Part shown: positions 806 through 42,384 of the stretch, in pieces | Layout of the letters: each line of letters begins with the position of its first letter | Numbering within the stretch: position 1 is the first letter of the stretch | Source: a virus | Length of the DNA stretch: 47,199 bases | Reading direction: 5' to 3' (one strand) | Virus record (IMG/VR): IMGVR_UViG_3300001450_000061 | Location: 1-47,199 of that record | Translations under genes and position numbers: made by a program | The notes under the pieces: model-generated | What the model was told of the DNA's origin: nothing | Database searches by the model: none | Seen by the model: the letters and a program-made list of their open reading frames with translations, nothing else

Positions 806-807
806 GT

Positions 808-6800: not shown

Positions 6801-9800
6801 TATAGTTCACTCGACTGTGCCCGGCGCATCTGGTCGCAACTTCTGTGCTTGGATGGATAACTCAAATGGTCAGGCTCCGTACAGACCAGAGTATCTCATT
6901 GGTCACGGAGGGCGTTTCCGCAACTACTGGTGCCAGCCAGATGAGATGGATGGTGAGAACATGCATCCTGCACCAATGCCAATCACTAAGTTTGGTCGTC
7001 CGTTTGCCCCAATCACTACGCTCCGAGAGTACATACCAATGGAGGAAGTCGATGCAGACTATCAAAACACACTCGACTTTGGTCCAGAAGTACATGGCTC
7101 GGGCGCAATCAACACTCACTCAACAGATGAGCACGCCACTGGTCGCAGTAGCAACACTATCCTCAATTCCAGTTTTGAGCCCAAGTCAGATGGGAAGGTT
7201 CTCGTCGAAGGTCTGCGAGTAGGAACACAAGCAAAGGCCCGAATCAACTTTGGCGGATTAACGCAAGCAGGCATTCCGGGTTGGGCACCTGATGCTGGTA
7301 AGTGGGGAATGGGAAGAGATGGCGCTTCCACTCGCTATGATTACATTTACGGTGACAAGGATTTGGTCCCCGGTACAAAACAACATGGCCTTGTCAACCA
7401 GAGCGGTGGTGGCTACATACCTGATGATGATATTCGACCCGACAAGATGGGTACAGGACAACTGTACGGCATCCGCATGGTCGACCATCGTGGAGATAGC
7501 CACACCATCAGAATGGCGTACAAGCAATATGGTGAGGCTTTGGGCAATTCTTTGACTCGTTTGCCACCTACATTGGACAACGAAGTCATCATTCACTTCG
7601 ATGACCGTGATGTGGGACAGGGTGGCTTCACCATAGGGAAGCACATCAGCGGCAAAGGTGATGTCTGTGGTCAGTACACTGGTGGTACAAAGCAATCCTT
7701 CCGTGGCAACCTTTGGAACACTTACAATTCACCTGCTGTGGGCATATCTGCTACCTTCCAAAAGGACGGCTCAAACGACAATTTCAAAATTGTTTTAGCC
7801 GCTCCGTACGGCACTGGTAGCAACTTAGCACACACGGATATTTTGGGCTATCTTGGTTTGCCTGACAGCGGGCTTATCCAACTAAACGATGTTGCTGGCA
7901 CAGCAAACAATGGAGAAACATACTACTACACGAGCCGCTCTCATTACGCCAAGGCTGGTGCTTCTGGTGTTCATTACCTGTACGGAGTAAAGAACATCGG
8001 TTCAGATTATTCCAGCGCAGTCACACGAATCTTTAGCCCTCGTATCAATTTCACTTCGCTCCTCACTGACGAAGTGATTGCGGCGGCAGTCAATCATGCC
8101 ATCAACATGGAAGACCCGAACACGGAAGATGTAGGGGCAACTTCATTCGACTGTACATCTTACTTGGCCCCAGACGGCAAGACGCTCGGAGAGTGGGGCG
8201 TAGCACCTGACGCTATACGCATCAAGGCACACAGTTCCAAACACAAGGTCACACCTCTGCGACACCTATTCCAATCGTCCGTCGGCAAAGATTGGGGTAT
8301 TCAAGCGGCGGCAAGCAATCTGGCAACAGGGACAAATCACTTGGGTGGCTTGACTGAGGCAGAAATCTTGCTTGGGGTCAGACTGGATGTAGGCTACATT
8401 CCGGCCACTGTTCTTCACATCACCACAAAGTATCGTGGACCCAATGCTAACACCGCAACCCCTGTACTTGTCGACAGCCTTAACGATTCTGTCAATGTCA
8501 AGCAGTGGCGTGACAATCTCAGAGGGGACACTTACATCCGCTTACCCGGTGACCGAATCACGCCGTGCATCAACACTGTGATGGTCAACATTGCTTCCAA
8601 AGATACAAGCACCACACCTGACCACTTGGTGCTTCCATCTAACGAGTATCTTTACCTTGCCATGACCCCGGCGTCTGACGACGCTAACGCTTGGAGCGAA
8701 GAGGTTGTCTTTTGGAGAGGTGACACAGACTGGGCCAGAGCGGTCAGCAAGGCAGGAGCCGCTGAAAACAAATTAAATTTGCTCAATCATTCGGCTGACT
8801 TTGTCACCAACCTTGCCGCCGACGATGTGCTTGTAGCCCACGCTAATCTTTTGAAATTCCATGACTGTGACGGCATTCGTACAACAGGTAGCCACCATGG
8901 AGAGCCATTCCTGTACTTCCGTGGTGGTCGTTCCAGTGTTGACAGGTGGGTACCTTTGTACTTTGGTGGTGGTTTCTCTGGAGTCACTCTTGACATTAAC
9001 GATGGAACACAAAACGATTATGAGGAATTTTACACTCACCCATACTCATCTGGACCGACTGGCTCTGCTGGTATGCAGAATGTAGGTGAGGCCGCTGGTT
9101 CCTATGCACTCATCGATACCAACGCTATGTTGGCTATGTTCCCCGGTACACCGTATCTTAACCAACACAACGGACAACATTATCCTCCTTTCTTTAACAA
9201 GGACGCTATGCTGAGTCCTGACTTGGATGGTGGAAATAACACGAACGCTTCTTCAACAGGAGTCACATACGCAGGTGGAGGAAAAACAGTCAACTGCAAT
9301 CGTCCAAGCCCAATCGTACTGCGCTTTTCCCATCCTCACGCACGATATTCGGCCAGTTCTATCAACACTGACGCTACGACTTATTTGGTCTTTGGTCCGG
9401 GGCAGGCTGTCCCTCACAACTTCCAGTCGTATGAACCTCAGTTGTCTGATATTATTACAACAGGAAACGGGTACAGTGCAGTACCCAGCACTCATCCTGC
9501 GGGTGAATCCTTCCTACCCAATCTAATTTCTCATGGTGGCAGTACGCTTTACGGCTTCTCTGCTAACCTACCGCCTACTAAAGAGTATCAAGCCAGCAAC
9601 ATATCAGGGTATAACTGGATTCTCAATTGGGAACCGACCAAGGGTATGCCTAATTCTCGCTTCTATGGGCAAGCGGCAGGTAAGGGGCGGTACTACGATA
9701 CGCACTTTGGCCCGAGTAGTCCTGTCGCTTATGCGCATCCTTTCGATGATGTGTTCAAGAATTACGCAGGTACTTTCATAGGAGCCATAGCCAACACCAG

Positions 9801-12800
9801 AGCGTCCAACAGCCTTTGGCACATGGACGGAGGCTATCACCCCGGTGGTCATTTCTTGGACAACCACATTATTCGCAATGTAAAAAATCCGTCATCAACC
9901 AATCGATTGGCAACAGGTAGTGGAGATACTCGTAATCCATCCGTTTTCCGTGTGAGTAGTGCGGTTGCTAAAGCCTATTCTCATGCAGACATTGATGGCA
10001 ATATCTTTGTCATCGATGCCACACGCTGTCAGAACGCAGAAGAACTGGCCGCAGTTCTTTCCGCAGGTATCAATACATTCCCCGGTATAGACCCTCTCAA
10101 GGCTATTGGTGGTACTTTCTTACCGACTATGCAACACGCAGGCAAGCAAGACCGCTATGGTTGGGTGGCCCTTGATGCAGTAGCAGATGGCTACACCGCA
10201 GAAGATGGTGCAGTTGCGACCTTACAGGCAGATGCTACTTTGCCAACCACATTACCTACATACGGTTGGTTGCGTGTAAGCAACGGTACTAAGTCTGCCT
10301 TTGCTCCCTATGTGTCTTACAGTGGCTCAACTTTCACGCTTGGTAAGAACGGTATCACAAATAGTACTAATTTGGTTGACCCCACAACAAAAGCGGCAAT
10401 AGCGGCCGCTCAGGTCAACGGAGATAATGGGCCAGTCAAAATCTATGTTTGGACTAAAGCGGGTACACATCAATACAACAACACGACTCAATCTCGTGAA
10501 CACATGACACAGGTGCACTTCAACGGCTTCATGGACGCAGTTGACCGTACCAAGCCCATAGGAGCAGTTGGTTGGGCAGGAGAGGCATATTCGTATCTTA
10601 ATTCGTACAACGGTACATCGATTGGCGGAACTAAATTCCCTGCTGGGCTCGGGGCTTGGCATCCATTCTTAGGCTTCGCTCCGTATGGCTCTGCTGAAAC
10701 CTGCTTGGCGTCTTCACCACCAATTGGTATTACAGAAACGCCTTCATCCTTAGCCAATGATTTTTGTGTACATGGTTTGTCCAGTCGTCATTTGGTAGCA
10801 GTCAGTCACGAAAGTGAATTGCCTCTCATAGCCAAAACAGACAGAGATGGCATCATTGCATCTGGTGATTGGCTTTCTGTCAAGGCAGACGGCAACATCT
10901 TGAGAGCAGGTACGCAGGCTTGGAACACAACTAAAGTCCACAACAAGAGCCGATATAACGCTCCTGCCACAGCAGGTCCTCATGTCGAGGCCAACATCCG
11001 AACAGGTACTGATTTCACAGCCTATCCGAATGTCGACACAGTTGCTTATCCAAATGCAAGGGTCACCTCAGCCAGCCATGTTAGTCGGGCAGACCCTTGT
11101 CAGAGTCCAACGGGAGATTTGTTCTGGGACAAATCAATCATGCCGACCAACCAATTACACACTCTGGCAGATTCTTTGGTACAGGAATGTGTAGGAGTCA
11201 GTTCTCGTGCGGAATACTATGGCACATCCGCAGGGCTATACAAGTATTACAACACAAAGAGTGCGGCTCGCAACTTTACAGAAGAACACATAGTATGGAA
11301 ACGAATGGACGGTGGCAACTTAACCATGCCTGCATCAAATGCTCGTGGCCTCGGTATGATACCTTGGACTGTCCGCAAAGACGGCGGGTCCTACAAGACA
11401 GTTGGAGAAAAGATTCTGGGCAATTGCCGATTCTCTTTTGAGTCGACGAACAGTGCTATGTTCCCAATCATCCAAGCACAAGAATTGAGCCATCCTCAAT
11501 TGGCACAGAAGCACATCAACGAAAAGGAAAACGCTCTGATTATACCTAACGAGCATTTGCAATTTGAAAGCGTGCAAGTTGTTGATGACACTGGTCAAGA
11601 ACATCGTCTTGAGGGTGGCAGTCCTTTGGGTACAGTCATCATGGATTTCAGGCATGTAAGTGACCGTGACATAGAAGGCTTATCCCCTGCTATCGCTGGG
11701 TCTGGCATATCACCCAACATGAAGATTCGACTACCAAACGCTGATGAAATCCCCGGCAACATCATTGTTCGACCGGGCTTTGACCGAATACAGGCTTACC
11801 AAAACGAAACCATGGGCTCTGGTGGTTTGATGCACCCTGCTCAAGCACAGCCATCTATAACTGATACATTCAAAGAAACCTACGATGGGCCGAGACTTTG
11901 GCCTACTTGGGAGAATAATGGCTGGGAACACCTGTCGCAAGACGGTACTGACCTTTCTGATGACCGCTTGGCGTTCCCTGCCAGTTCTTCAAAGGGCTGG
12001 GAGTCACATACTGACAATGCTCCTTTGAACACAGCATACGAACCACATGACCGCTCCTTGCAATTCCATGTGACTCGTGTAGGTGTGACAATGACGCACC
12101 GCTACGATGTTGATGAACTGACTTACAGTGGCTACTCGGGTGCTGAAATCACAGTTGGTAGTACACCGGAAGTTGCTACATGGGTGGCCGACGATGAGAA
12201 AAGCGGCGGTCGTTGGTTCTTACGAGTGTACGACCCTGCAACAAACAAGGGCGTGTTAGCCTCTTATACTGGCAAAGGAACCAATAAATTTACAGGTGTT
12301 GTGTACAGTCCAGACTTTGTTTCTTTTGTGACTGGTAAGACCGGACTCAAGGTTGTACCATCGTACTTCATGCCTGCCGGTAGCACTCGTTTCTTTGCTT
12401 CTCGACGGTTGCGTGACCATAGCGAATACAGCGGGGCCAGCCCAGACATGAAGACTATTGACTGGTCGGCAGTTAATGGAACTCCCTTCACTGCTCTGAG
12501 TGCGCCCAAGATGACGCCTATGCCTATTCCACGCATGGGCCATCATTATGTCACACCAACAATGGCTTTGATGCCGGGGCACTATGCTCATCCTGCTTAT
12601 CAACGCCTTTACGACCTTGGCCAAGCAAATCAAATTACAACCTCTTCGACCTTTGAGGATGATATGTCAAGTCAGTACAGCGGCGCTGACTTACTTGAAC
12701 GGCTTAATCGTCGTGACCCGCTGGTTTGGTTTTCAGGAGCATCCGCCCCTCACGGCCCGTCCGACATACACGGTGGGGCATTCACTCTTTTGACTGAAAC

Positions 12801-15800
12801 CAAAGTCAAATTCGACGGCTACGGGATAGCCGCATCGAAAGGTAGTGCAGGCACGACAAATTCACAGGGAGGCCACTCCATTGTGTTAGAGGCGGCTGGT
12901 TCTTACACTCTCAACAATCATTTCCCAGACCCTATGGAAGTTGGAGCATATCAGATTATTATTCAGCCAAATGTGTTCAAGCAACAATTCTCTGGTTATC
13001 ACAGCAATCATTCAGACGCAGTGGAGGCCCCCTCGGAATCTGGCACTAAGGTCACAGAATTGACTGGTCAGCAGGTGAACACCGTGGTCGCCATTGCTCA
13101 CGACGATGGAAGCAATACGAACGGAGCCTACACCTTGATTCTGGCAGAAGCAACCATGGCAGATGTCAGAGGTTGTGAAATCATGCTCAATGAAATCATG
13201 CTCGACCTTGACCCTGATGCCTCAAGTCAATTCACAAACCTACCTCCATTGGCTAACTACAACTCTCTCGGAGTGGAAGAAACTACATCACCTGCGTTTA
13301 GTAGGCGCACCTTACCTTATCATCCCAACATGTTCATTCAAACTACACCCGGATTTACACTTACAGTGCCTTGGTGGGCAATGTTGCACAAGGATGGAGC
13401 AACCGCATCCGCCGCCACTTATTTTAGGCACCTTGAATGGCATACTCCTGACCACTACTACCAGATGAACAGGGCTACCTTTGGTGCGGTAGGCGCTCAA
13501 ATCACACTTGCTGGTTATCCTACATGCTATCCTGACATTTACGCAGAGCACTATCGTGTTCGTTCTCTTAACCCCAATGCTAAGGTCACAGCCTCATCTG
13601 CTGGAGGCAGTACAGTCAATGTGGATAATGCGGAACTTTTCCCAGTCAAGGCATACTACGGAGAGGTTTTGGAATACACAGATGCTAACGGAGAAAGGCA
13701 GACGGCCACCTACACAAACCGAACAGGAACATTAGCGCACGCTACTCTCGGAGCACCTACGCAATTTCAAGGCGTCACAGAAGTGACTCCTCTTTTCTTT
13801 GATAACTTGACTAACGGTACAATTATTCGTTTGAGTGGGCCTTATGACAATCGAAGGGCAGATGAAATTTTCACCAATTCGCTCGTAAGTATGACCACTC
13901 GGGTTATGCCACAGACGATGAACGGGACTCGTGACACCAATAGCCTACACCTTGCCGATGCTTATTTGTGCATGTGGCATCCAAACTTAGGTCGTCCGTT
14001 CACCTACTACTCCGATGACAACAGCAGAGGGTTCTATGACAAGAACGGAGCAACAGACACACCTGTTCTCAAGAAAGGACTCAACAATGTCCCTGAACAC
14101 TTTGAAACAATTCACTACAATGACTTCTTCTATGCGGCATCTAAGGGCCCGTTCGTATTTGGAATGAATTGGGTTAGGCCACCCACCTCGGTCACCGACA
14201 CATATTCACTTCAAAAAATATCTGATTCCGTAGGTACGACTGCCAACCGAAGAGGTATAAATTTCCAAATGATTGCAAACACGACTACATGGATGACGGG
14301 TATTCGTGTGGTCGGAGATGACATCATTGTTTCCAATCGTGGACACAACAACGACTACGATACTGATAACATCTTATTTTCTAAGATTGACATAGCAAAT
14401 ACCAACGGTACATACGACCAACAGAGTTCAGGTATAGGCGACTCAGACATGAGCAGTTGTGATGGCTTTGACTTAGACCCAACCGGTACAAAAATGCTCA
14501 TCGCTGGTTTCCATGATACTCACGGCGTAAGAAGTGCAACGCTTTCAACTGCATTTGATTTAACAACTATTTCGCTCACTGGTTCCCTAAAAGCATCGGG
14601 TGGCAATGGAGTGAGAGCAGTATCATGGAACAATGATGGGAGCAAGTATTACATGGCTTATGCCTCCACTTTGCGACAATTTACTGCGGCCAGTGCTTAT
14701 GTGGTAGCAAGTGGCGACTCAGAAGGTAGTTCTGCCTCAATTAGTGCAGGTACAATCAGCGATATACTGTTCAATTCGGATGGTACAAAGATGTGGCTGA
14801 GTGGGGCGACTGGCTATGTCCGAGAGTACACACTGTCGACGCCTTACGATACTTCCACTTCTTCTTTGGATGTCACACTTGATTTGAGAACTTATTTCCT
14901 TAACAAGTCAGCGTCAGTTTCTCAAACCAATAGCGATGCTACACCTTGGATTTCCGGTATTGATTGGAGCGATGATGGTACGAAGTTGTATGTTTCAACG
15001 CTTTGGGGTGTAATTGACGATAGTAAGATGGATAACAATCCAAGCCCGTCGACCGTCAATGGTGTTGACGGAGGCTCAACCACTAACCGTTTCCCTATCA
15101 TGGAAATCAGCATTTCAACCACTTCTATTGTTGGTGGAACCGGTGCATCCAGTACTGCCGCAGAAATAGATTCCAACCCAAATCTTTCGCACCAAGGAGG
15201 CACTATTGGTTCGGACAAATACAATTTCGCAGGCTATTGGCCGGGTGGTTCCAGAGGAGGAGCGGGCTCCAGTCGTTTAGATGGTTTCCTTGAAACACTC
15301 ATTGGATGGGGCGGGAAGTTATTCGGAGTTGACTGTGTGAGTTTCCACGACAGTACTGGTCTTGAAGAGCGAACATACGCACAAATGACAACAGCGTCGG
15401 ATGATGCCCGCAACACTTGTTTTGGCTACCGCTTTGCTCTGCGTCAACCATTCAACCGCCCACGCTGGTCCCCCTATGTCCGAGGCTACTTAGAAGTGGC
15501 TAACGCCAATGCTTTGCTTGGTTATTACCACGGTCCATTTATTCAACAAGACAACAAAGATGACGGTTGGGTGGCTGACTCAGACTATCCTGCTACCTAC
15601 ACAGGTGTACTGGAACGACTTACTCAAATTAGTGCGTTGCTTAATCAGGACCAATTAGGTCGTCAAGTCAGATACAGCGACGGACGCAGAATGACCCGTG
15701 CTTTTGGCTGTCCTGTTCGTACAATCCGCAACTCGTCCAGTGTACGAAGAATGTACGCAGGTGACAGGGCAGGCTTAGAAATTGCAGAGATTGCTCAAGC

Positions 15801-17241
15801 ACATCGCTACTACATGGTCGATTGGTGGGGCAACACTCGTGGAGAAGATGTCCGTCGCTTCCCAGTGCGTGGCTTCGGTATTTCTCCTGCGTGGGACCCA
15901 GAAGATGCATACGAAGACGGCGGCAGTAGCAATCGACCAGAAGCGAATGGCCTCTTCGCCACCAGTACCGACCGACAAAGTGGCAATTCCAACACAGCCA
16001 ATAACGATGTAGCGGTTATGGCTATAGTGGATTGGTTCAACCCGACGAACGCCATGCGAGTAGGTGACCGAGGGGATGGGCGTGGCGTACGATGGCCTAC
16101 GCATTTCAATGAGAGTTTGCTGATGGATATATCAGAGTCTGTTGAACCAACAGGTCTGGTGCTATCACAGCCCACTGCTGAGCCTACTGTCGGCAAAGGC
16201 TTGGTTCGCCCAAGAAACGATGTACTGCAAGCCGGTGAAACAGACCGTGGTATCAGTGCACGCCTCGACCTTGCTGATGATGATGGCCTTCTCAAGCCGA
16301 CTGCCATGGTCAATGAAACGACTGAATCAATCACAACAGACACCATGCTTGCAGAGCCTGTCGGCGGTGACGGTGTGCGGATTGGATTAGATGTCGACAC
16401 GCTCGGTGAACTCAACAACGGTGTGAGCCGTGAGTATGTAGTTATGTCGACAGAAGCGCACAGCCTACACAGCAACAGAGATGTTGGTCAGCGGACGACA
16501 CTCAGAGGAGCAATGAATGTCGGCAATCGTACACTTGGTCACCTTGATATGACTGCGTTGGACTGGACTGGACAGCCTGTAAAAGGCATCATCAAGGTGT
16601 CTGATGCACACTCATTCTGGGCTCTTGGTGGTACCTATGTTATGAATTGGAAGCGCAGGGCAGGAGCACTCGATGTGACTGGCTGGGGCGAGGCCGGAGC
16701 AACTTCTTCCTCTAACCCATACCAAGATAGTAATCACACTTCGGTGACCGATAACATAAATCACGCCGACTCTGAAATTGAGTTCTTAGTTCGACCAGCA
16801 TTTGTTTTGGACAACTCACATGTACAGTTGTTCCGTTCCAACATGGCTGTCAAGTCAGGAGCACCCCAAGCAGGAGGTACATTTTACGCCGCTACTGCTG
16901 GTGGTAAGTACGGAATTTATACCAGTGATGCGGCCTCGGCTCGTACAGGTACACCAAGCAGTCCACCGTACGCACCTGTGTACAGCGTCAATCCTGCTAA
17001 CAGTGCCGCAGTAAGCCAAGGACCCAAGATTCTGGGAGTTGATGTGTCTGGTTATGACAAGACTGATATTACGCAACCAGTCGCCCGTATCACAATGAGT
17101 GAGAACACACTGGAGCATTTCAGAAGCGATGCCGCAAGAAAGGAAGACTATTCTGTCGAGCCTCGTCACAGTCAAACACTGCACCCAAAGGGCAGTAAGG
17201 GCGATACATCTTTTAACAGCGGTGACCACAGCACGGAGTGA
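808..17241 (+). CDS. Giant virion-associated protein (5,477 aa) with LamG-like N-terminus and beta-propeller-like region
   Basis: A single uninterrupted frame of 5,477 codons. ATG 808 is preferred over GTG 802 because AGGGGTG lies 5 bases before it. Residues about 10-245 look like a concanavalin A/LamG fold: FTIEAWI, then LHINGD, then LSIGGTGGEYRGTIEAV. Around bases 14,440-15,140 (residues about 4,545-4,780) there are at least four repeats of the type DGTKM/DGSKY/DGTKL followed by a strand, as in NHL/WD-like propellers of phage tail proteins. The remainder is unassigned, rich in Gly, Asn, Asp, Thr and Ser, poor in Cys, with no evident membrane helix, as expected for an extracellular fibrous protein. 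It is followed at once by small virion-type genes. Likely role: tail tip, baseplate or host-surface adhesin (inference). Lectin-like and propeller modules fit glycan or S-layer binding. No protease, lysozyme or hydrolase motif was recognised by eye, but a protein this long may hide several. Confidence 0.85.
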   Translation: MTVSIEPSHALFFNGITDGVIVPQMTFKNNFGELHTGSDLTHQKTPTALSAFTIEAWIIPDSGGIVWEQENVCRIIVGSPSSPGPAHAQIKLRNIANDAENTFTLSSAQAVSGLDGDVAYWDGVTFPRAGLDVHDTFNAQDDSKNDLTGLNLGHRELLQVTLTFDRTILSLHINGDVIASKTLDEEHELALHPTQLSIGGTGGEYRGTIEAVHWSRGASDAGHDLSLPVKNDSTLGLWRFEEPVEPIATSITLPSLSASTGASSSISIGTTLAQTLVDEFTGQSGLTSVNLTTSPQSNGSYSVKRFTSGSSTTVSVPHVPFNLLINPLGYSQSTGIPNREAPERVRITAVDASAGTMTVESIHLDYASNASTGRRGLLMAHGAGIGVIVTGDCLVDGGTGEPYQIAGTGTQFSHRQGQVLIDESDFENHGLLFALTMATTDNGYSKFSATTRMADNFLIGHTGRHTLNHIPGHPFMGTMPTPTAAYVEQSVDAVAQTMEASFAAQYADLSDAVPPGSPVVFNDLFGPYDVSGLAFSSVPTQAVENGMAGVDDTQRALLAIGGDGFDAEPFALRNMGDTSPTGDAHTRHMTPSTESRVAILKVPSLSAYDYAPFVQVHYNAIDFAGTGMKHAATGRLTHNYSSSVIKLQSTEAFGKTGTTIRADYISIAGEVAGASSIAATLDHSAKTITFASAPTSAFQTAAVTGAIVNVSLRGSALLVQKTIPSGNTQLASGVKMVDLIHSDISAGTAVLYAPGGVLEFDSDSSFYIEDGGLIGDDSEGTIAETQLDVSLTPNNYLPLHSTDSVQKAPQVIASALYDNTVHKSFFHKLVISASDNEQITPNLEASGNFQAEFKKEIRPRTGVLVNNGGGYSATATSITVDGVDATTKFGVGLNVYTQKGLLLGAITSLSSTAIGISAGIAGTVTDNEELFHQPLMQAVSSTNQSTAVNEVFDIIGHRTKSGRTRVVVQPSDRRRFSQLTKMLTNKDDSEPNTVTVQYVVGRGKVIDFDSNAQNDTVLRAHGLVADALSNSVHIKGDGAPDSHIVKEIMPGSPVVTMTMGGVGQGAVNTKPTWDPSPTARLGWSTRRDCTTKVSALGSTTITVVPLNNNATDLASWGTYCFPKVGKIFLQKPGIEGADNQLFASAEYASKTGSVFTFASGTTHLGSGKFVLFDGTEAASFADWKTGTAIAIGGYLQVDDKFNAESIAPDGTTINDRLFQTLDTVQHDYQLGTQYASTRAMIEFPLFEEFFFDDPDAGVFPGPDNSMKLHLDATYTAPTWAPNPVGRRPKSVAPEDPQVNSAFSLPVSQKKHKRGTTISAEYDSSNRRIYVKDASLFPIPSAAPVVIGGIGGALRFRSAFTKNGEWVIYSAIDTTNNYLTVAGNAAADDAWAFSSNFLRDYQVGSRISPAQGIQNMNYKSIADNPTLSSAGFEQRSEFYYDRANVMTQGGNIDYGLKQYVSAVEFRSGPTINPHLPHVQNKRARGIVEAFSSPNLTLESSETWPATTSHSTHAYRVRYYDNTASAYKHAHYKTRTGNVLSLITIDSGFNPSAGTEITLVDFHATGSTLPATLDTQLLNTKWANPFCPGGLRDGDTVWMNMQYTNPHSVEGLFCKSRGTLNEGQVWTGFLGGASDFATTPRESIPMENFLIGNSCLETSRNFVQHINKTIELNYEALGLSATLAPTVAYLDPYQCTEDYARVLLYDVAHDREFIAFQDLWMQVQSSPETAVVKRPLDVANGFPSQDKETASTAKSEFMEAAMAHNNSGQLNVTIATHATGYHNHIPNVSATMPRTNNAVTEYGSPESTHLQIDSSSDEVSTLFDTPDGTRVVPAFLSMKGIRSSTLDLSGHEESRLQHLPHWNQMDFVRRLTLDFGEIGVRQGITDIEAAAKEVVRRINQAGAKTGRTHARRPADQFLGEADRFDLGKGHSATSTNPRKDPTAPHQKADFAATGSTHDPAPFWNSDTAFGSHDRGTHMGYMRAHLGRVVNSAEGKKGYSIIVHSTVPGASGRNFCAWMDNSNGQAPYRPEYLIGHGGRFRNYWCQPDEMDGENMHPAPMPITKFGRPFAPITTLREYIPMEEVDADYQNTLDFGPEVHGSGAINTHSTDEHATGRSSNTILNSSFEPKSDGKVLVEGLRVGTQAKARINFGGLTQAGIPGWAPDAGKWGMGRDGASTRYDYIYGDKDLVPGTKQHGLVNQSGGGYIPDDDIRPDKMGTGQLYGIRMVDHRGDSHTIRMAYKQYGEALGNSLTRLPPTLDNEVIIHFDDRDVGQGGFTIGKHISGKGDVCGQYTGGTKQSFRGNLWNTYNSPAVGISATFQKDGSNDNFKIVLAAPYGTGSNLAHTDILGYLGLPDSGLIQLNDVAGTANNGETYYYTSRSHYAKAGASGVHYLYGVKNIGSDYSSAVTRIFSPRINFTSLLTDEVIAAAVNHAINMEDPNTEDVGATSFDCTSYLAPDGKTLGEWGVAPDAIRIKAHSSKHKVTPLRHLFQSSVGKDWGIQAAASNLATGTNHLGGLTEAEILLGVRLDVGYIPATVLHITTKYRGPNANTATPVLVDSLNDSVNVKQWRDNLRGDTYIRLPGDRITPCINTVMVNIASKDTSTTPDHLVLPSNEYLYLAMTPASDDANAWSEEVVFWRGDTDWARAVSKAGAAENKLNLLNHSADFVTNLAADDVLVAHANLLKFHDCDGIRTTGSHHGEPFLYFRGGRSSVDRWVPLYFGGGFSGVTLDINDGTQNDYEEFYTHPYSSGPTGSAGMQNVGEAAGSYALIDTNAMLAMFPGTPYLNQHNGQHYPPFFNKDAMLSPDLDGGNNTNASSTGVTYAGGGKTVNCNRPSPIVLRFSHPHARYSASSINTDATTYLVFGPGQAVPHNFQSYEPQLSDIITTGNGYSAVPSTHPAGESFLPNLISHGGSTLYGFSANLPPTKEYQASNISGYNWILNWEPTKGMPNSRFYGQAAGKGRYYDTHFGPSSPVAYAHPFDDVFKNYAGTFIGAIANTRASNSLWHMDGGYHPGGHFLDNHIIRNVKNPSSTNRLATGSGDTRNPSVFRVSSAVAKAYSHADIDGNIFVIDATRCQNAEELAAVLSAGINTFPGIDPLKAIGGTFLPTMQHAGKQDRYGWVALDAVADGYTAEDGAVATLQADATLPTTLPTYGWLRVSNGTKSAFAPYVSYSGSTFTLGKNGITNSTNLVDPTTKAAIAAAQVNGDNGPVKIYVWTKAGTHQYNNTTQSREHMTQVHFNGFMDAVDRTKPIGAVGWAGEAYSYLNSYNGTSIGGTKFPAGLGAWHPFLGFAPYGSAETCLASSPPIGITETPSSLANDFCVHGLSSRHLVAVSHESELPLIAKTDRDGIIASGDWLSVKADGNILRAGTQAWNTTKVHNKSRYNAPATAGPHVEANIRTGTDFTAYPNVDTVAYPNARVTSASHVSRADPCQSPTGDLFWDKSIMPTNQLHTLADSLVQECVGVSSRAEYYGTSAGLYKYYNTKSAARNFTEEHIVWKRMDGGNLTMPASNARGLGMIPWTVRKDGGSYKTVGEKILGNCRFSFESTNSAMFPIIQAQELSHPQLAQKHINEKENALIIPNEHLQFESVQVVDDTGQEHRLEGGSPLGTVIMDFRHVSDRDIEGLSPAIAGSGISPNMKIRLPNADEIPGNIIVRPGFDRIQAYQNETMGSGGLMHPAQAQPSITDTFKETYDGPRLWPTWENNGWEHLSQDGTDLSDDRLAFPASSSKGWESHTDNAPLNTAYEPHDRSLQFHVTRVGVTMTHRYDVDELTYSGYSGAEITVGSTPEVATWVADDEKSGGRWFLRVYDPATNKGVLASYTGKGTNKFTGVVYSPDFVSFVTGKTGLKVVPSYFMPAGSTRFFASRRLRDHSEYSGASPDMKTIDWSAVNGTPFTALSAPKMTPMPIPRMGHHYVTPTMALMPGHYAHPAYQRLYDLGQANQITTSSTFEDDMSSQYSGADLLERLNRRDPLVWFSGASAPHGPSDIHGGAFTLLTETKVKFDGYGIAASKGSAGTTNSQGGHSIVLEAAGSYTLNNHFPDPMEVGAYQIIIQPNVFKQQFSGYHSNHSDAVEAPSESGTKVTELTGQQVNTVVAIAHDDGSNTNGAYTLILAEATMADVRGCEIMLNEIMLDLDPDASSQFTNLPPLANYNSLGVEETTSPAFSRRTLPYHPNMFIQTTPGFTLTVPWWAMLHKDGATASAATYFRHLEWHTPDHYYQMNRATFGAVGAQITLAGYPTCYPDIYAEHYRVRSLNPNAKVTASSAGGSTVNVDNAELFPVKAYYGEVLEYTDANGERQTATYTNRTGTLAHATLGAPTQFQGVTEVTPLFFDNLTNGTIIRLSGPYDNRRADEIFTNSLVSMTTRVMPQTMNGTRDTNSLHLADAYLCMWHPNLGRPFTYYSDDNSRGFYDKNGATDTPVLKKGLNNVPEHFETIHYNDFFYAASKGPFVFGMNWVRPPTSVTDTYSLQKISDSVGTTANRRGINFQMIANTTTWMTGIRVVGDDIIVSNRGHNNDYDTDNILFSKIDIANTNGTYDQQSSGIGDSDMSSCDGFDLDPTGTKMLIAGFHDTHGVRSATLSTAFDLTTISLTGSLKASGGNGVRAVSWNNDGSKYYMAYASTLRQFTAASAYVVASGDSEGSSASISAGTISDILFNSDGTKMWLSGATGYVREYTLSTPYDTSTSSLDVTLDLRTYFLNKSASVSQTNSDATPWISGIDWSDDGTKLYVSTLWGVIDDSKMDNNPSPSTVNGVDGGSTTNRFPIMEISISTTSIVGGTGASSTAAEIDSNPNLSHQGGTIGSDKYNFAGYWPGGSRGGAGSSRLDGFLETLIGWGGKLFGVDCVSFHDSTGLEERTYAQMTTASDDARNTCFGYRFALRQPFNRPRWSPYVRGYLEVANANALLGYYHGPFIQQDNKDDGWVADSDYPATYTGVLERLTQISALLNQDQLGRQVRYSDGRRMTRAFGCPVRTIRNSSSVRRMYAGDRAGLEIAEIAQAHRYYMVDWWGNTRGEDVRRFPVRGFGISPAWDPEDAYEDGGSSNRPEANGLFATSTDRQSGNSNTANNDVAVMAIVDWFNPTNAMRVGDRGDGRGVRWPTHFNESLLMDISESVEPTGLVLSQPTAEPTVGKGLVRPRNDVLQAGETDRGISARLDLADDDGLLKPTAMVNETTESITTDTMLAEPVGGDGVRIGLDVDTLGELNNGVSREYVVMSTEAHSLHSNRDVGQRTTLRGAMNVGNRTLGHLDMTALDWTGQPVKGIIKVSDAHSFWALGGTYVMNWKRRAGALDVTGWGEAGATSSSNPYQDSNHTSVTDNINHADSEIEFLVRPAFVLDNSHVQLFRSNMAVKSGAPQAGGTFYAATAGGKYGIYTSDAASARTGTPSSPPYAPVYSVNPANSAAVSQGPKILGVDVSGYDKTDITQPVARITMSENTLEHFRSDAARKEDYSVEPRHSQTLHPKGSKGDTSFNSGDHSTE

Positions 17242-20815: not shown

Positions 20816-20830
20816 AAGGTTTAATTTTTG
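20816..20830. promoter_or_regulatory. Putative archaeal TATA-type element, possibly divergent
   Basis: The sequence AAGGTTTAATTTTTG sits in the only non-overlapping gap of the plus-strand block. Its AT core centre (about 20824.5) is about 25 bases before ATG 20850 on the plus strand and about 28 bases before ATG 20796 on the minus strand. Archaeal TATA boxes lie about 25-28 bases from the transcription start, so both messages would be leaderless, which fits the absence of Shine-Dalgarno sites at both starts. Confidence 0.35.
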
Positions 20831-20849
20831 CACCGCTCTGTCCTTGCAC

Positions 20850-21005
20850 ATGAGTCTTTGGCTGTTTTTTATCTTGAGTTTTATCTGCGGATTTTTGTTC
20901 ACTTGGTATGCCACAAATGACTTAGGCTCCGATGTTGTATTCTTCACTGACAGTGCCGAATTACAGGAAATGTGCATGGATGGTCTGCGGAAGGGTCAGC
21001 AATGA
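20850..21005 (+). CDS. Small membrane protein (51 aa)
   Basis: Starts at ATG 20850 and stops at TGA 21003-21005, sharing ATGA with the HMG-CoA lyase homologue. The first 20 residues are strongly hydrophobic (LWLFFILSFICGFLFTWY) and should form one membrane helix. The rest is a short acidic/polar tail ending LRKGQQ. There is no Shine-Dalgarno site, but an AT-rich TATA-like element lies about 25 bases upstream, so the start fits a leaderless transcript. This would be the first gene of an accessory unit continuing into the lyase. Function unknown. Confidence 0.5.
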   Translation: MSLWLFFILSFICGFLFTWYATNDLGSDVVFFTDSAELQEMCMDGLRKGQQ

Positions 21006-21841
21006 ACATCAGTGTCTATGAAGTCGGGCCGAGGGACGGTTTGCAGGCTTTGGGCACTGTGGTCAGTACAGAAACCAAAAGGCTTCTGATAAAGCAACTG
21101 TACGCTTCTGGCATCAAAGACATAGAAGAAGTTTCATTTGCTCACCCAAAGGTTCTGCCACAAATGGCTGACGCAGAGGCCGTGTACACTAAAGGGGCTG
21201 GGCTTATCATGAACAAGCGGGGCTTCCTCCGTGCACAACAGACAGGTGTCGACAAAATCAACATAGTATTCAGTCCCTGTGAAACCTTCAACATTCAGAA
21301 CATGGGCAAGACTCGCTCAGAGATTGTTCTGATGTACAAGACATTCATGGACAAGGTACCCAAGGAGAAGGTGCGAGTGTACCTTTCTATGGCGTTCGGT
21401 TCGCCTCATAGTGGCGAGGTTTCACCACAAATGATGCAACTGTGCTTACGGGATGCTAAGATGTTTGGAACGACCGTCGTATTTTCTGACACAGTAGGCT
21501 GTGGCACTCGTCAAGAAGTGGCGCTGTGGGCAGAGATGGCTCAGGACGAAGGCTTGACCCCTGCTCTTCACCTGCATCACAAGGGTGACGAAGCAAGTGC
21601 CCTCAGTCTTGTCAGAAGCGGCCTGATGAGTGGCATCAAACAGTTCGACTCAAGCATAGGTGGTCTTGGTGGATGTCCGTTTGCTGAGGGCAGTGGGGCT
21701 AACCTATCGACCGAAGTCTTGGTGCGGCATCTCAATGTGTGGGGATTCAACTGCGGCATCAAGGAAGCCGACCTACGCTCTGCTCTCGATGTCGTGAAGG
21801 ACATTCTCAAAGGCCAAGAGGATAATTTGATTAGACATTGA
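21002..21841 (+). CDS. Hydroxymethylglutaryl-CoA lyase homologue (HMGL-like, DRE-TIM family)
   Basis: A 279-residue protein, slightly shorter than cellular HMG-CoA lyases (about 300). ATG 21002 is preferred: GGAAGGGT lies 6 bases before it and it shares ATGA with the upstream stop. Active-site signatures of the family are present: EVGPRDGLQ (R11, D12), IEEVSF (E42), a PKVLPQMAD segment (50-57), DTVGCGTR, the metal-binding HxH pair (H190, H192), GGLGGCPFA with the catalytic Cys (C225), and GANLSTE (N234). Cellular enzymes cleave HMG-CoA to acetyl-CoA and acetoacetate in leucine breakdown. The residue after the second metal His region differs (HLHHKG against HCHDTYG in animal enzymes). In archaea HMG-CoA also feeds the mevalonate route to membrane lipids, so the enzyme could redirect carbon during infection (inference). 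Other DRE-TIM lyases or synthases are less likely given GGCPFA and HxH. It lies between a membrane peptide and an HExxH protein. Confidence 0.85.
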   Translation: MNISVYEVGPRDGLQALGTVVSTETKRLLIKQLYASGIKDIEEVSFAHPKVLPQMADAEAVYTKGAGLIMNKRGFLRAQQTGVDKINIVFSPCETFNIQNMGKTRSEIVLMYKTFMDKVPKEKVRVYLSMAFGSPHSGEVSPQMMQLCLRDAKMFGTTVVFSDTVGCGTRQEVALWAEMAQDEGLTPALHLHHKGDEASALSLVRSGLMSGIKQFDSSIGGLGGCPFAEGSGANLSTEVLVRHLNVWGFNCGIKEADLRSALDVVKDILKGQEDNLIRH

Positions 21842-21856: not shown

Positions 21857-22861
21857 ATGGTCAGGCCACTTGATGTTGCTTGGTCAATCCTCAAATTTGA
21901 TTTAAGCATAGGAAGCAAACATAGGGGACACCACGAGGGCGAACCTGACTTAGGGGATTATATCAGCAGATATACTCATAGTAAAAAATATCATCCGGCC
22001 CTTATGGAAGGAAATCACAATGCGGCCAATTTCAAAACATCGATATTTTCACACATGGATGAAGATAGTCCTATGAGGAGAAAATACGAGAACATGGACA
22101 GAAATACTCTAAATTTGCCCAATTTTCCTGTAGGGCCAATAAAAGATGAGCATGGTACCTATTACAGAGGCATGTCAGTTCCACGAATACAAGATGATGG
22201 CTCTTATGTTGGTGTGAATTTGGACCAAATTTTAGGCCGCATGTTTGAAAAGGACTTTGACAAGGGTGCTGAGGACATAGCCAGAATCGGTGCTCATGAA
22301 CAAACACATAGGCTCATCAATGATGAAATTGAACAATGGGCGAAACAGCAAACTAACATCGAAGCATTAGAGCGAGAACAGCAAAAGAACATTGAGCGGC
22401 TGACCCAACAATACCCTCCACTAAAACCCCACCCATTCGGCCTCCGGCCAAATACCGCAGGCGATGTGTTGGTAAGAGCAGGTATAGATTTAGACCCTTA
22501 CGGCGATGAAAGATACCCTGAAACCTTCCACGATTTAGAATTAGACCAAGCAGAAAATTCCTATTACCCCTTGCGGTCAATAGGTCACGAATTCGGCGCT
22601 TACAGCCTGACACCTGACAGCAGTAGCCCAACTGGTTTCATGACTGCCGAAGAAAGGTTTGACAGGATGGGCGGCCCCGTGTATCAAGGGGCTGAGTATT
22701 ACCACCCAGACCCTGAACTCAGAAGCGACCTCTCAGAATTACATACAGTCGGACCATCGGAAGACCAAGCGGAATACGAGCAAATGCTTTTTGACCTATA
22801 CAGTCTCAGCCAAGAACAACAAGCGGCGGGGGATGTCAATCCTCAGACTTCCGTCCAATGA
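21857..22861 (+). CDS. Putative zincin-type metallopeptidase (HExxH), 334 aa
   Basis: Last gene of the plus-strand block, 15 bases after the lyase homologue. Residues 147-151 are HEQTH in a helical context (ARIGAHEQTHRLIN), the zinc-binding motif of zincin peptidases; HEFGAY at 244-249 could supply the third ligand through E245. Between them is a Glu/Gln-rich stretch likely to be helical (residues 155-187). The N-terminus, VRPLDVAWSILK, resembles that of the small basic gene at 17247. No signal peptide is seen. Candidate roles are virion maturation or exit from the host, both speculative. The 3' end overlaps the thermosome gene on the opposite strand by 26 bases. Confidence 0.55.
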   Translation: MVRPLDVAWSILKFDLSIGSKHRGHHEGEPDLGDYISRYTHSKKYHPALMEGNHNAANFKTSIFSHMDEDSPMRRKYENMDRNTLNLPNFPVGPIKDEHGTYYRGMSVPRIQDDGSYVGVNLDQILGRMFEKDFDKGAEDIARIGAHEQTHRLINDEIEQWAKQQTNIEALEREQQKNIERLTQQYPPLKPHPFGLRPNTAGDVLVRAGIDLDPYGDERYPETFHDLELDQAENSYYPLRSIGHEFGAYSLTPDSSSPTGFMTAEERFDRMGGPVYQGAEYYHPDPELRSDLSELHTVGPSEDQAEYEQMLFDLYSLSQEQQAAGDVNPQTSVQ

Positions 22862-24341
22862 TGTCATCGATGCGTAGGATGCTAATGCTGACCTCGCTTG
22901 CTGACTGAATAGCCTGCTTCACAAGTTCGTACGGTTCCCATACATTCGCCCCTCCCATTGAGATTGTACCGCCGTTGTAAATATCCGGGCCGTAATCAAA
23001 GTTGCCTTGTAGGTGTTCGTTCCTCAACTCAAGGATGATGTCCAGCGGGTCGTGACCTGCGTTCTGCGCAATGGTAGCAGGAATGCTCTCCAAGGCGTTG
23101 GCGAAGGCTTCGATGGCCATCTGTGCCCGACCGCCGATTTCGGCGGCACGAGAGCGCAGGTTGAGAGCGGCGTTCATGTAAGACGAACCTCCTCCTCTGA
23201 CGATACGCTCGCTGTTGAAAGCAAGGCAGACTACGCCTAATGCGTCGTCGAATCCCCGCTCTGTTTCGTCGAGTGTTTGACGAGTGGCTCCCCGTAAGAC
23301 CAAGGTAGTGACGCTGTTTTCTCCACCATCGACATCCTCGATGCTAATGTATTGCATGTCACCCATGGTGAATTGAAGCACCTTGCCTGCTGGGTCAGCA
23401 CCATTCAAGTCTTCGACTGAGTGAGCCACTGTTGTACCGAGCAGGATAGCCATGGCCTCCATGTCGCTCGGAGGGACTCTCTGAGCAACACTGATGTTGT
23501 TCTTGGAAAGCAAGGCCGCAACCAGTTCGTTGACCGAATCACGACAGAAGACAACTCCACCTTTCGGTAGCATGTCGACGATTTTTTCCACCTTGTCTTG
23601 CCAGATGTCCTTGTTGGCGTATTCCTGATAAGACTTGTAATCGCCAACATTCGACACATTGACTTGTACGCTGTCCTCTTGCTTGGAAAGTCCAGAGTTG
23701 ATAAGGACCACCTGCGGTGTAGGTTGGTTCTTCATGCTCGACATCATAAAGGTCTGATTCAAGATTTTGCCAGAGAAGCAGTACGAATCTTCCAGTGAGC
23801 CGCCCGGTTGACACACGACGCTGATGCGCTTGATGTCGCCCTTGGCACGATTGACTGCCTCAACGCAGAGGGCACTGACTTGTGCCTCGTTGCTCTCCAG
23901 TGCTTTACCTGTGATAGCGGTCTTCGCCACTTGCGATAGGTATGGTTCGATGTCTTCGACGGTGATGCCGTTGATGTGTTCCACTGCCCACTTGGCGGCT
24001 TGACGATACCCTTTGCAGACTACATTAGGATGCAATCCTTTGTTGAACAGTTCTTGTGTGTTAGCCAGCAGTTCGCCAGCCAGAATTGTCGTAGTCGTTG
24101 TGCCATCGTAGCACATGGTTTCTTGCGTGTTTGCGGCTTCAACAATCATCTTCGCACCGGGGTGGGTGATGTCAAGTTGTTGGAGAATGGTAGCGCCATC
24201 GTTTGTCACGATAACATTGCCACCTCCGTCAACCATCATTTTGTCCATCCCCGCTGGTCCAAGCGTTGACCGAACTGTGTCGGCAATTGCTTTGGCGGCT
24301 CTGATGTTTAGGCTCTGTGCTGTTTGTTTTTTCTCGGTCAT
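22836..24341 (-). CDS. Group II chaperonin (thermosome) subunit
   Basis: A 501-residue protein, against about 540-560 for cellular thermosome subunits. Start ATG 24341 has AGAGAGGA 6 bases upstream; an in-frame extension to 24491 would run into the exonuclease gene and lacks a Shine-Dalgarno site. Family signatures: LGPAGMDKM (27-35), NDGATIL (47-53), YDGTTTT (78-84, normally GDGTT), VLRGATRQTLDETERGFDDAL, GGGSSYMN and the C-terminal ILRIDDIIGRK. These proteins form double-ring ATP-driven folding chambers in the archaeal cytoplasm. A viral copy would probably assist folding of large virion proteins, such as the 5,477-residue protein here, or join host rings. Thermosomes are reported in magroviruses. 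Last gene of the minus-strand block. Confidence 0.93.
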   Translation of the reverse strand: MTEKKQTAQSLNIRAAKAIADTVRSTLGPAGMDKMMVDGGGNVIVTNDGATILQQLDITHPGAKMIVEAANTQETMCYDGTTTTTILAGELLANTQELFNKGLHPNVVCKGYRQAAKWAVEHINGITVEDIEPYLSQVAKTAITGKALESNEAQVSALCVEAVNRAKGDIKRISVVCQPGGSLEDSYCFSGKILNQTFMMSSMKNQPTPQVVLINSGLSKQEDSVQVNVSNVGDYKSYQEYANKDIWQDKVEKIVDMLPKGGVVFCRDSVNELVAALLSKNNISVAQRVPPSDMEAMAILLGTTVAHSVEDLNGADPAGKVLQFTMGDMQYISIEDVDGGENSVTTLVLRGATRQTLDETERGFDDALGVVCLAFNSERIVRGGGSSYMNAALNLRSRAAEIGGRAQMAIEAFANALESIPATIAQNAGHDPLDIILELRNEHLQGNFDYGPDIYNGGTISMGGANVWEPYELVKQAIQSASEVSISILRIDDIIGRKSED

Positions 24342-24354
24342 GTGTATTCCTCTC

Positions 24355-24966
24355 TTACCATTGTATGTCGAATTCTTTGACAACGCCCGTCTTTCTGCAA
24401 CGGGCCTTAACAAATCCTTCTTTGTTCCCATGCTCCCATAATTCGTATGCGAGTTGAGCGTCCTTGAGGCAGTAGTCTGCCACCTTTCCATAATTGCCTT
24501 TGCGCCACTCCAACGGAGCGTCGTGGCTTTTCATTGTCTTCCCTTTACCAAGGGTGTGCAGACATGCGTCTGCTAACGGAATGGTCGACCCTGTGGCCGA
24601 CCGTAATTTCGCAGAAGTATCGATGATACAATCTCCTGCCTTACCGAGAATATCACCTGCTGACCAGCAGTCGAGGCTATCTCTGAGAATAGGTAAATCG
24701 AAGCCCACTATGTTGTGACCAATTACTTTGCCACCCTTGGCTATGTGTGCTTCTATGTCTTTACCAAGTATTTCTGAGTGTAGGGGTTTTACCTTGACAC
24801 CTTTGTCAAGGAATTCCTTTGCTTGTGACTTGTTGCAATACACGGTACCATCAGTACCGTCCCATGTAGCAACCACGGTAGGCTCGAAAAGATGCGTGTT
24901 GCCCCAGCCGCCTATCTCGTGTGAGAAGTTTTTTGTTTCGATGTCAATAGATAAGATTCCTGTCAT
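24355..24966 (-). CDS. DnaQ/PolB-like 3'-5' exonuclease (DEDDy), stand-alone
   Basis: A 203-residue protein with all three exonuclease motifs: Exo I SIDIET (D8, E10), Exo II GHNIVGFD (N85, D90), Exo III YCLKD (Y165, D169), giving the DEDDy catalytic set. It resembles an isolated proofreading domain of family B polymerases. ATG 24966 shares ATGA with the small zinc protein upstream. The viral DNA polymerase has its own exonuclease domain, but with altered Exo II residues, so this enzyme may proofread or trim in trans (inference). It lies 13 bases ahead of the thermosome gene. Confidence 0.85.
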   Translation of the reverse strand: MTGILSIDIETKNFSHEIGGWGNTHLFEPTVVATWDGTDGTVYCNKSQAKEFLDKGVKVKPLHSEILGKDIEAHIAKGGKVIGHNIVGFDLPILRDSLDCWSAGDILGKAGDCIIDTSAKLRSATGSTIPLADACLHTLGKGKTMKSHDAPLEWRKGNYGKVADYCLKDAQLAYELWEHGNKEGFVKARCRKTGVVKEFDIQW

Positions 24967-39995: not shown

Positions 39996-40117
39996 GCCGT
40001 CACCTCCACGCCTTGTTCGTCGCATTCAACTTCTTCGCCCTGTTCGTTTAGGAAAAAGAAAATGTTGATTGATGAGTCGTAGTAAATGGGATTCCCATTA
40101 TTGCTTGAGTGCATCAT
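39992..40117 (-). CDS. Tiny acidic protein (41 aa)
   Basis: Starts at ATG 40117 (double ATG), sharing ATGA with the upstream gene and preceded by AGGTGA. The core SINIFFFLNEQGEEVECDEQ looks like a beta-hairpin. Ends VEVTA from the junction repeat. No function can be proposed. Confidence 0.5.
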   Translation of the reverse strand: MMHSSNNGNPIYYDSSINIFFFLNEQGEEVECDEQGVEVTA

Positions 40118-40620
40118 GCCGTCACCTCCACGCCTTGCCACCAGTCGGGGGCAGGTGTTCCCTTCTCCCACTTGGCGAACTGCTTGGAATGGTAGTAGGC
40201 TTGGTATGCTACAACCGCATCATCGTCACGATACTCGTCGGGCATAGCCAGTGCGAATGGTGTGAGGTCACCTTCGGCGATGATGAAGTCCAAATCGGAC
40301 ATGATGTTGATGGGGTCATGGCAAGCATGACGCTTACCAAATCGCTTGTAGTATTCGTCACACAATGCTTTTGCATGGTGAGATAGCCATTGAAAATTAT
40401 CATCACAATGACCAGCCCATACTGTGCATGGATGATGAGCGTAGCCGCCCTTGTACGGTGTGCCTTTCTTGGTGAGTGGCATGTCCTCATCGGTAGCACC
40501 CCATCGGCGCAGGGCCGATGCCATCATCTGTGCGGCCTCCACGACCATCTTGGGCACATGCTTATCGCAGTGCATGTGAGCCGCAGTAGCAGGGTCAGTG
40601 TCAAGTACGAAGATGTTCAT
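40114..40620 (-). CDS. Phage MNIF/CDKH-family protein (Pyr_excise-like)
   Basis: A 168-residue protein; ATG 40620 has GAGGTGG 6 bases ahead. It opens with MNIFVLDTDP and CDKHVPKMVVE, then YAHHPCTVWA, NFQWLSHHAKAL and EYYKRFGKRHAC. This His-rich pattern is a widespread phage family which, from memory, is placed with pyrimidine-dimer glycosylase-like proteins (PF03013). If right, it would be a base-excision repair enzyme protecting viral DNA from ultraviolet damage in surface water. Family membership is likely, activity is not shown. First gene of the VEVTA series. Confidence 0.6.
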   Translation of the reverse strand: MNIFVLDTDPATAAHMHCDKHVPKMVVEAAQMMASALRRWGATDEDMPLTKKGTPYKGGYAHHPCTVWAGHCDDNFQWLSHHAKALCDEYYKRFGKRHACHDPINIMSDLDFIIAEGDLTPFALAMPDEYRDDDAVVAYQAYYHSKQFAKWEKGTPAPDWWQGVEVTA

Positions 40621-42085: not shown

Positions 42086-42384
42086 TGTCCTCTCTCCTCT
42101 CTTACTTCTGTTAGCCAAATCATTTGACAGCAACAGCGTGATGGATGCAATCGATAATTCTCGGTGACCAGCACACAGGACAATGTCCCGTTCGTGCTCT
42201 CCCTACAAGCAGGGCAGACCTTCAAGTCAAGGTTCGCTACAAGTAGCACCTCTTCCTTTTCAGTCTTCCCTGTGAATGACACATCCGCAGGGATGGGAAG
42301 GTGAGTACCCAACAAAGAGTACCTCTTCCCATCCACTACGAAGTTGCCGTCATCATCGATTTGTTTTGAACTCATCTCACTCAA
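42082..42384 (-). CDS. Hypothetical Cys-containing protein (100 aa)
   Basis: Start is probably TTG 42384, in a TTGA junction with GAGGT 6 bases ahead; ATG 42375 is the alternative. N-terminal half is beta-like (GNFVVDGKRYSLLGTHLPI). CPAC (about 57-60), C70 and a CCC run (84-86) suggest metal binding. Ends EERGQ. No family recognised. Confidence 0.55.
   Translation of the reverse strand: MSEMSSKQIDDDGNFVVDGKRYSLLGTHLPIPADVSFTGKTEKEEVLLVANLDLKVCPACRESTNGTLSCVLVTENYRLHPSRCCCQMIWLTEVREERGQ

Follow-up and report, generated by a model that had tools for sequence, protein, structure and literature searches.

A divergent clade of HMG-CoA-lyase-like proteins, often encoded behind a small predicted membrane protein, in viruses resembling magroviruses

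The window analysed here is the complete IMG/VR virus record IMGVR_UViG_3300001450_000061 (47,199 bases; G+C 49.7%), and it encodes a DRE-TIM metallolyase whose nearest solved relatives, judging from sequence and predicted structure, are HMG-CoA lyases. The protein is probably a magrovirus enzyme of HMG-CoA-lyase type, Mg-dependent and adapted to the virus, that would cleave host HMG-CoA, and its gene comes second in a cassette that is complete in itself; we hold this reading with moderate confidence. A magrovirus HMG-CoA lyase as such is already known. What is new are two features recognised by sequence comparison: the viral lyases form one divergent clade, a conserved viral gene found in varied neighbourhoods, and the lyase is often the second gene of a cassette made up of a TATA-like element, a predicted membrane protein of ~51 aa and the lyase itself. 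The features are located in Table 1; beside the ATG start used there, the lyase ORF has an alternative GTG 30 nt upstream, which would give 289 aa.

Table 1. Positions of the cassette and of the adjoining genes in the window.
Feature	Positions	Strand	Remarks
TATA-like element TTTAATTTTTGCACC	20820..20834	+	30 nt upstream of the ATG of the small ORF; putative promoter
Small ORF, 51 aa, one predicted transmembrane helix	20850..21005	+	Helix from hydropathy only; conserved C-terminal tail
Shine-Dalgarno-like GGAAGGG	20989..20995	+	6 nt ahead of the lyase ATG, within the final codons of the small ORF; putative function
HMG-CoA-lyase-like protein (HMGL/DRE-TIM metallolyase)	21002..21841	+	279 aa; family, structure, alignment and tree evidence
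ORF of 334 aa, function not assigned (context)	21857..22861	+	Between lyase and chaperonin; fast-changing
Chaperonin, TCP-1/cpn60 family (context)	22836..24491	-	Cpn60_TCP1, E 4.8e-133

Against the Pfam HMGL-like family (PF00682), the lyase scores 73.2 bits, above the cut-off of 29, which places it in the family. The same cut-off is exceeded in 13 of 14 virus records, a count that is no measure of prevalence because the 13 were chosen for holding the lyase. The best NCBIfam model is that of HMG-CoA lyase (NF004283/PRK05692) at 188.5 bits, short of its curated cut-off of 246 bits, so that the protein is not filed in the PRK05692 subfamily. All four viral proteins scored lie below this value (188.5, 211.4, 217.7 and 235.4 bits), and all seven bacterial comparison proteins lie above it (273–347 bits). 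Models of LeuA-type enzymes (isopropylmalate, citramalate and homocitrate synthases) yielded 18–27 bits (maximum 26.7) against cut-offs of 414–517. Every one of the six distinct PDB sequence matches with E <= 0.001 is an HMG-CoA lyase, led by 1ydo (E 2.7e-34).

An AlphaFold2 model of the lyase (pLDDT 91.6, pTM 0.90) served as the query for structural comparison: HMG-CoA lyases occupied Foldseek ranks 1–14 and, in VIA, which re-examines the 1000 chains ranked best by Foldseek, ranks 1–8. These eight entries gave Z 34.7–36.5 and rmsd 1.8–2.0 over 262–270 residues; the other entries listed had Z of at most 27.6, the first of them being a bifunctional aldolase/aldehyde dehydrogenase. The top VIA match, tied with the rows below it, was 6nds, an HMGL structure containing CoA and 3-methylmalate. 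An earlier note on this DNA had claimed an HMG-CoA lyase homologue, and both kinds of search bear this out. A synthase (LeuA/CimA) identity was rejected on the PRK05692 and LeuA-type bit scores and on the VIA ranking, and the placement in the citramalate/isopropylmalate synthase families that the earlier note had raised as the competing assignment thereby falls away.

In human HMG-CoA lyase, Arg41, Glu72, Tyr167 and Cys266 are the most critical residues, and Asp42, His233, His235 and Asn275 are the Mg ligands, according to the accessible portion of a review (PMC6941031). Numbered through phmmer alignments to PDB lyase sequences, human R41, D42, E72, Y167, H233, H235, C266 and N275 correspond to viral R11, D12, E42, Y127, H190, H192, C225 and N234, and each of the eight is present in 71 of 71 distinct viral proteins in the alignment. 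This set comprises the window protein and those of 119 viral loci (L001–L034 and L206–L290) after removal of identical proteins; the locus L032 is cut by a contig end. All the residues listed in the earlier note (R11/D12, E42, H190/H192, C225 and N234) are therefore present and invariant, and the loss of the catalytic Cys or His in relatives that it had envisaged is not seen at C225, H190 or H192; the Tyr167 equivalent, Y127, had been overlooked. With its catalytic and metal-binding residues intact, the protein should be capable of genuine retro-Claisen cleavage of a 3-hydroxyacyl-CoA, and HMG-CoA is most likely the substrate.

The placement of the His pair varied with the alignment. In phmmer alignments to 1ydo and the human enzyme and in hhalign, where a two-residue gap is placed, H190/H192 stand opposite His233/His235; in ungapped alignments (joint MAFFT; phmmer against 2ftp and 6nds), K194 falls opposite His235, contradicting that pairing. 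The earlier note had proposed modelling of the active site, and predicted structures of both types of protein were compared on this point. For a classic bacterial lyase (L067), modelled with pLDDT 94.8, strand 204–209 ends in His 207 and 209 and a helix follows 6 residues on; in the viral model, strand 186–193 contains H190 and H192, and the helix begins 5 residues later. The modelled secondary structure, together with phmmer against 1ydo and the human enzyme and with hhalign, favours H190/H192 as the probable metal pair.

Outside the catalytic set, several lyase motifs are altered in the viral proteins. HxHDT is changed to HxHH, with His directly after HxH in 71 of 71 proteins, and the Q-N-E that follows D-G-L is altered. 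The acidic pair Glu279-Asp280, which we take to carry functional weight in HMG-CoA lyase and which served as a test for that enzyme, is absent as such: no viral protein (0 of 71) has Asp at position 280, and Glu279 is kept in 58 of 71. These changes, and viral scores under the PRK05692 cut-off, lend some weight to a reading that we consider possible though clearly not the probable one, in which the protein performs the same retro-Claisen chemistry on a related 3-hydroxyacyl-CoA, for instance one resembling citramalyl-CoA or a 3-hydroxy-3-methyl-acyl-CoA with a longer branched chain. The 3-methylmalate-bound 6nds at the top of the VIA list points in the same direction, as does the context of relatives on haloarchaeal and bacterial plasmids. 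Genes annotated 'hydroxymethylglutaryl-CoA lyase' adjoin a CoA transferase gene in all five plasmid loci opened (L291, L292, L293, L294 and L295), and 3-isopropylmalate-dehydratase-like genes lie near the annotated lyase in three of them (L291, L293 and L295). This context suggests a different pathway and substrate for the plasmid proteins, and lyase-named genes beside a CoA transferase mean that the name by itself does not fix the substrate.

The Tyr167 position argues against another substrate. It is Tyr in the human, B. subtilis and P. aeruginosa lyases and in 71 of 71 viral proteins, and Thr in 6nds. Among the 80 nearest bacterial loci (the best 80 of 567), only 4 have Tyr, most having Thr or another residue, and in a wider set of cellular proteins Tyr occurs in 12 of 114. 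Moreover, ten lyase-neighbour proteins from several viral loci, searched against Pfam, included no CoA transferase or dehydratase, although many neighbours there are without annotation. We retain HMG-CoA as the preferred substrate.

The phylogenetic position of the viral proteins was assessed in a tree of 79 rows (28 viral and 51 cellular, picked by identity and length thresholds) built by a quick method without bootstrap. All 28 viral representatives fall into one clade (SH-aLRT 99, stem 0.65), which meets the classic lyases, and not the HFHNTR group, at an unresolved base. The cellular side consists of bacterial sequences and a single haloarchaeal plasmid row, without Poseidoniales and without a LeuA-type outgroup or synthase; of the homologues that the earlier note had called for, the tree covers the bacterial ones. 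The nearest BLAST relatives are bacterial (all of the best 80 of 567 are titled as bacteria), mostly carry HFHNTR-type motifs and reach at most 38% identity. They were rejected as the closest active-site type because Tyr167 is mostly Thr in them and because the viral clade lies outside them in the tree.

Selection on the lyase was estimated from coding sequences. Values of dN/dS were 0.05–0.16 against four close relatives and had a median of 0.086 (range 0.016–0.32) over 82 viral pairs, which shows the viral lyase to be under purifying selection. These values bear on whether the fold has been re-used, without catalysis, as a structural or regulatory protein. The divergent sequence is consistent with such a role, as is the stretch of residues ~100–135, strongly conserved among the viral proteins and unlike cellular lyases there; however, the catalytic and metal residues are all invariant across wide divergence, and PHROGs gives the window protein no family. 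We consider this re-use very improbable, and a non-catalytic relic was rejected on the median dN/dS and the eight invariant residues.

The gene is found in many viral sequences. A scan of viral sequences with the single window protein recovered 34 loci at 62–96% identity, and a scan with an alignment recovered 157 stretches, of which the best 80 were kept, so that the gene does recur in related viral contigs, where the earlier note had suggested seeking it. That the locus is an assembly chimera or host DNA has in its favour that the cellular matches (the best 80 of 567, all bacterial) included no close homologue of the viral clade. Against this stand the contigs of the two scans, the neighbouring genes shared with the seven closest relatives (L001–L007) and the separate viral clade. 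A lyase in many related viral contigs, with conserved neighbours, is not a chimera; this explanation was rejected, and we give it practically no weight.

Distribution across longer genomes was examined through the chaperonin. Among chaperonin-bearing virus records of at least 70 kb, drawn from the best 80 of 288 chaperonin loci, six of seven hold the lyase (G001, G010, G006, G016, G040 and G042) and G039 does not; within the DNA surrounding the chaperonin, a lyase was near in 9 of these best 80 of 288 loci. Over all 40 records of the search that covered G006, G016, G039, G040 and G042, most of them shorter fragments, 5 hold the lyase, and it was not found in G014, a 96-kb record reached through PolB. 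At least three gene neighbourhoods occur among 19 representative loci. The lyase is thus widespread in long chaperonin-bearing records yet shifts in position. Searched by protein, a phage collection gave 3 records with ~30% identity to the lyase. In two records labelled 'Acinetobacter phage' (CAKLQH020000001 and CAKLQF020000001; 329 and 379 kb), the lyase relative is annotated leuA_2, and both records possibly include bacterial DNA.

The lyase of the window lies between two differently oriented gene blocks. To its right, on the - strand, are the chaperonin, two nucleases (one of ERCC4/XPF type, the other PD-(D/E)XK), DNA polymerase B, an SNF2 helicase, a clamp-loader-like AAA ATPase and a protein that weakly matches a primase. 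To its left, the genes are on the + strand, one ORF of 5,479 aa among them, and those tested in Pfam- and PHROGs-type searches matched no family. A relative of 90,220 bases, read through L002 and L362–L365, shares ~91–98% DNA identity with the window in most long shared stretches and 80–89% in others. In this relative, the same-strand block left of the lyase runs on into genes for the portal, large terminase, major head protein and head protease, and the + strand genes of the window therefore probably belong to a virion module. The earlier note had placed the lyase between virion genes and a replication block: the replication and repair genes on the right are found in the window itself, and the virion side is read across from the 90-kb relative.

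The gene neighbours of the lyase are the same in L001–L007, apart from a chaperonin that would lie off the end of L004. In these seven closest relatives, the lyase is 93–96% identical and the neighbouring proteins 93–99%, and the 334-aa ORF, at 56–58% in the best tblastn segment, is fast-changing by contrast. Several other features of the window were recorded. The 5,479-aa product comes from a single ORF at 802–17241, whose counterpart in the 90-kb relative has 5,168 aa; its region ~14177–15180 has no aligned stretch there, and its first 2,733 aa gave no Pfam match above the cut-off. The - strand also encodes a pyrimidine-dimer glycosylase-like protein (40114–40620) and a DUF932 protein (42381–43955). 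Rfam gave 0 matches in the window at the gathering threshold.

In the published layout of Magrovirales, replication genes and morphogenesis genes form two modules that face opposite ways (PMC10768690, PMC12999244). By gene content, archaeal-type replication genes (PolB, clamp-loader-like AAA, XPF/ERCC4 and the weak primase match) are present in the window and tailed-virus hallmarks in the 90-kb relative, in opposite modules, a layout that fits Magrovirales as published. The archaeal type of the virus, as the earlier note had it, agrees with these genes. By analogy with the magrovirus literature, the host would be a member of the Poseidoniales. As a marker for further magroviruses, the AAA/clamp-loader protein returned 6 close loci only.

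Immediately upstream of the lyase lies a small ORF, also overlooked in the earlier note, whose TGA overlaps the lyase ATG (ATGA). Of the 71 distinct viral lyase loci, 36 have a small ORF with such a stop/start overlap (ATGA, GTGA or TTGA). In L022, the small ORF is present with another ORF between it and the lyase; in other loci, the lyase directly follows different genes or a promoter-like element. The small proteins have a single hydrophobic stretch (best 19-residue Kyte-Doolittle mean 1.57–2.96, median 2.18) and a tail ending G-[LM]-R-[RK], a feature also used for recognising them. Between the window and L001, the small ORF carries 7 synonymous changes over 29.0 sites and 3 nonsynonymous over 124.0, and the pooled pN/pS is 0.40 over 80 pairs; the small protein of the window matched no Pfam family up to E = 1. 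One of the words GGAGG, GGAAG, GGAGA or AGGAG stands within 18 nt before the lyase start in 36 of 36 cassettes, a count given with no computed background rate. Since this Shine-Dalgarno-like word falls within the final codons of the small ORF, part of the tail conservation may reflect it.

A search with the small protein confirmed 23 loci, 22 of them with the lyase adjoining or just after. In the remaining one (L354:2485-2649), the small membrane ORF is joined by ATGA to a different ORF, 502 aa from its ATG, and a divergent lyase lies ~2.8 kb from it in the same record. The small protein therefore accompanies the lyase and is not strictly bound to it.

The TATA-like element stands at a distance from the small ORF that we take to match a leaderless archaeal promoter. 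It is the sole zero-mismatch match in the window; with 2 mismatches, 4 matches were found against 1.74 expected in the window, which is not significant. Across 35 sequences that total 584 kb and include near-copies, a related TATA-like pattern gave 21 matches. Twenty precede the lyase, 18 of these by exactly 182 nt, one by 461 and one by 34 (in a locus without the small ORF), and the last lies elsewhere. The pattern is without a match in 15 of the 35 sequences, and a shuffled window averages 0.3 matches. A looser core motif, defined after the sequences were seen, is present in 34 of 36 cassettes and in 43 of 70 loci overall (L208, which has no small ORF, was left out for its orientation), compared with 0.05% of random 27-nt stretches.

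HMG-CoA is the precursor of mevalonate and hence the shared precursor of archaeal membrane lipids, and HMG-CoA cleavage is the final step of leucine breakdown. In our preferred reading, transcription from the TATA-like promoter would give a leaderless message starting with the 51-aa predicted membrane protein, and the lyase would be translated through stop/start coupling to the small ORF. During infection, the lyase would split host HMG-CoA into acetoacetate and acetyl-CoA; two-carbon units would be released for energy and biosynthesis, and carbon would at the same time be diverted from mevalonate and isoprenoid lipids, the drainage of isoprenoid synthesis being either a side effect or the aim. 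HMG-CoA reductase (PF00368) and the N-terminal domain of the synthase (PF01154) were found in none of 15 virus records, some of them fragments, and the HMG-CoA would therefore be host-derived. Poseidoniales are described as proteolytic, with many amino-acid degradation genes, in the accessible text of Rinke et al. (PMC6461757), and a lyase that frees acetyl-CoA as leucine degradation is completed fits such a host. HMG-CoA, leucine and mevalonate are not mentioned in the accessible parts of Tully 2019 and Rinke 2019 (PMC6461757). Literature searches on Marine Group II with HMG-CoA lyase found nothing, and those on Poseidoniales with leucine degradation found Xu et al. 2023 (PMC10160649) only.

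The absence of reductase and synthase genes also suits a different purpose, in that the virus appears only to consume HMG-CoA: its removal could serve as sabotage, stopping isoprenoid lipid synthesis or altering membranes for assembly or release, with the membrane protein positioning the lyase at the pathway. HMG-CoA's place as mevalonate precursor and the coupling of a small membrane protein to the lyase are in keeping with this; however, the missing genes agree equally with the acetyl-CoA reading, and the coupled small ORF is absent from 35 of 71 loci. We judge sabotage as the purpose to be improbable. More tentatively than the enzyme itself, and as a rather unlikely extension, the two genes and their leaderless promoter may act as a take-over cassette in which the peptide anchors the lyase to the host membrane or controls it there; HMG-CoA would then be broken down on the spot, and the isoprenoid lipid supply of the host redirected during infection. 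If magroviruses commonly cut the acetyl-CoA/isoprenoid branch point, infection would be tied to archaeal carbon flow and membrane lipids, and the coupled membrane peptide and clean promoter-like element offer testable starting points that go unseen when only the lyase is annotated.

Compared with cellular HMG-CoA lyases (human HMGCL 2cw6/3mp5, B. subtilis 1ydo, Brucella 1ydn and P. aeruginosa 2ftp), the viral protein has the fold, metal ligands and catalytic Arg, Glu, Tyr and Cys in common. It differs in its ~30% identity and in the altered HxHDT, QNE and E279/D280 motifs, and in the models its His-pair strand and following helix are shifted by a few residues relative to the classic lyase. Among the viral structures of BFVD, just one further protein matched strongly, the HMGL-like A0A1V0SKU2 of Klosneuvirus KNV1 (TM 0.87, E 9.5e-23), which is 26% identical to the viral lyase and comes from a giant virus of eukaryotes.

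The earlier note did not recall such a lyase among described archaeal-virus metabolic genes; it is, however, in print for magroviruses. In the 2023 ICTV profile of Aoguangviridae (PMC10768690), HMG-CoA lyase appears as a gene for host metabolism; Xu et al. 2023 (PMC10160649), in its accessible text, lists HMGCL for leucine degradation among sporadically distributed magrovirus genes. Literature searches combining HMG-CoA lyase with viral terms, and small membrane protein with magroviruses or hydroxymethylglutaryl, returned no account of the cassette, which other papers may contain, and the magrovirus accounts (PMC10768690 and the accessible text of PMC10160649) make no mention of a small membrane protein or promoter. 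Aoguangviridae and magroviruses resemble the virus studied here in being tailed and in having opposite replication and morphogenesis modules, a chaperonin and an HMG-CoA lyase, and theirs are linked to Poseidoniales. The Aoguangviridae type virus has a stated G+C of 31.5% (PMC10768690) against 49.7% in the window, and the lyase described for these viruses (record ON649702) would be a homologue of that in the window. Finally, magrovirus auxiliary metabolic genes (AMGs) are sporadic in the accessible text of Xu et al. (PMC10160649), whereas the lyase is present here in six of the seven long chaperonin-bearing records.
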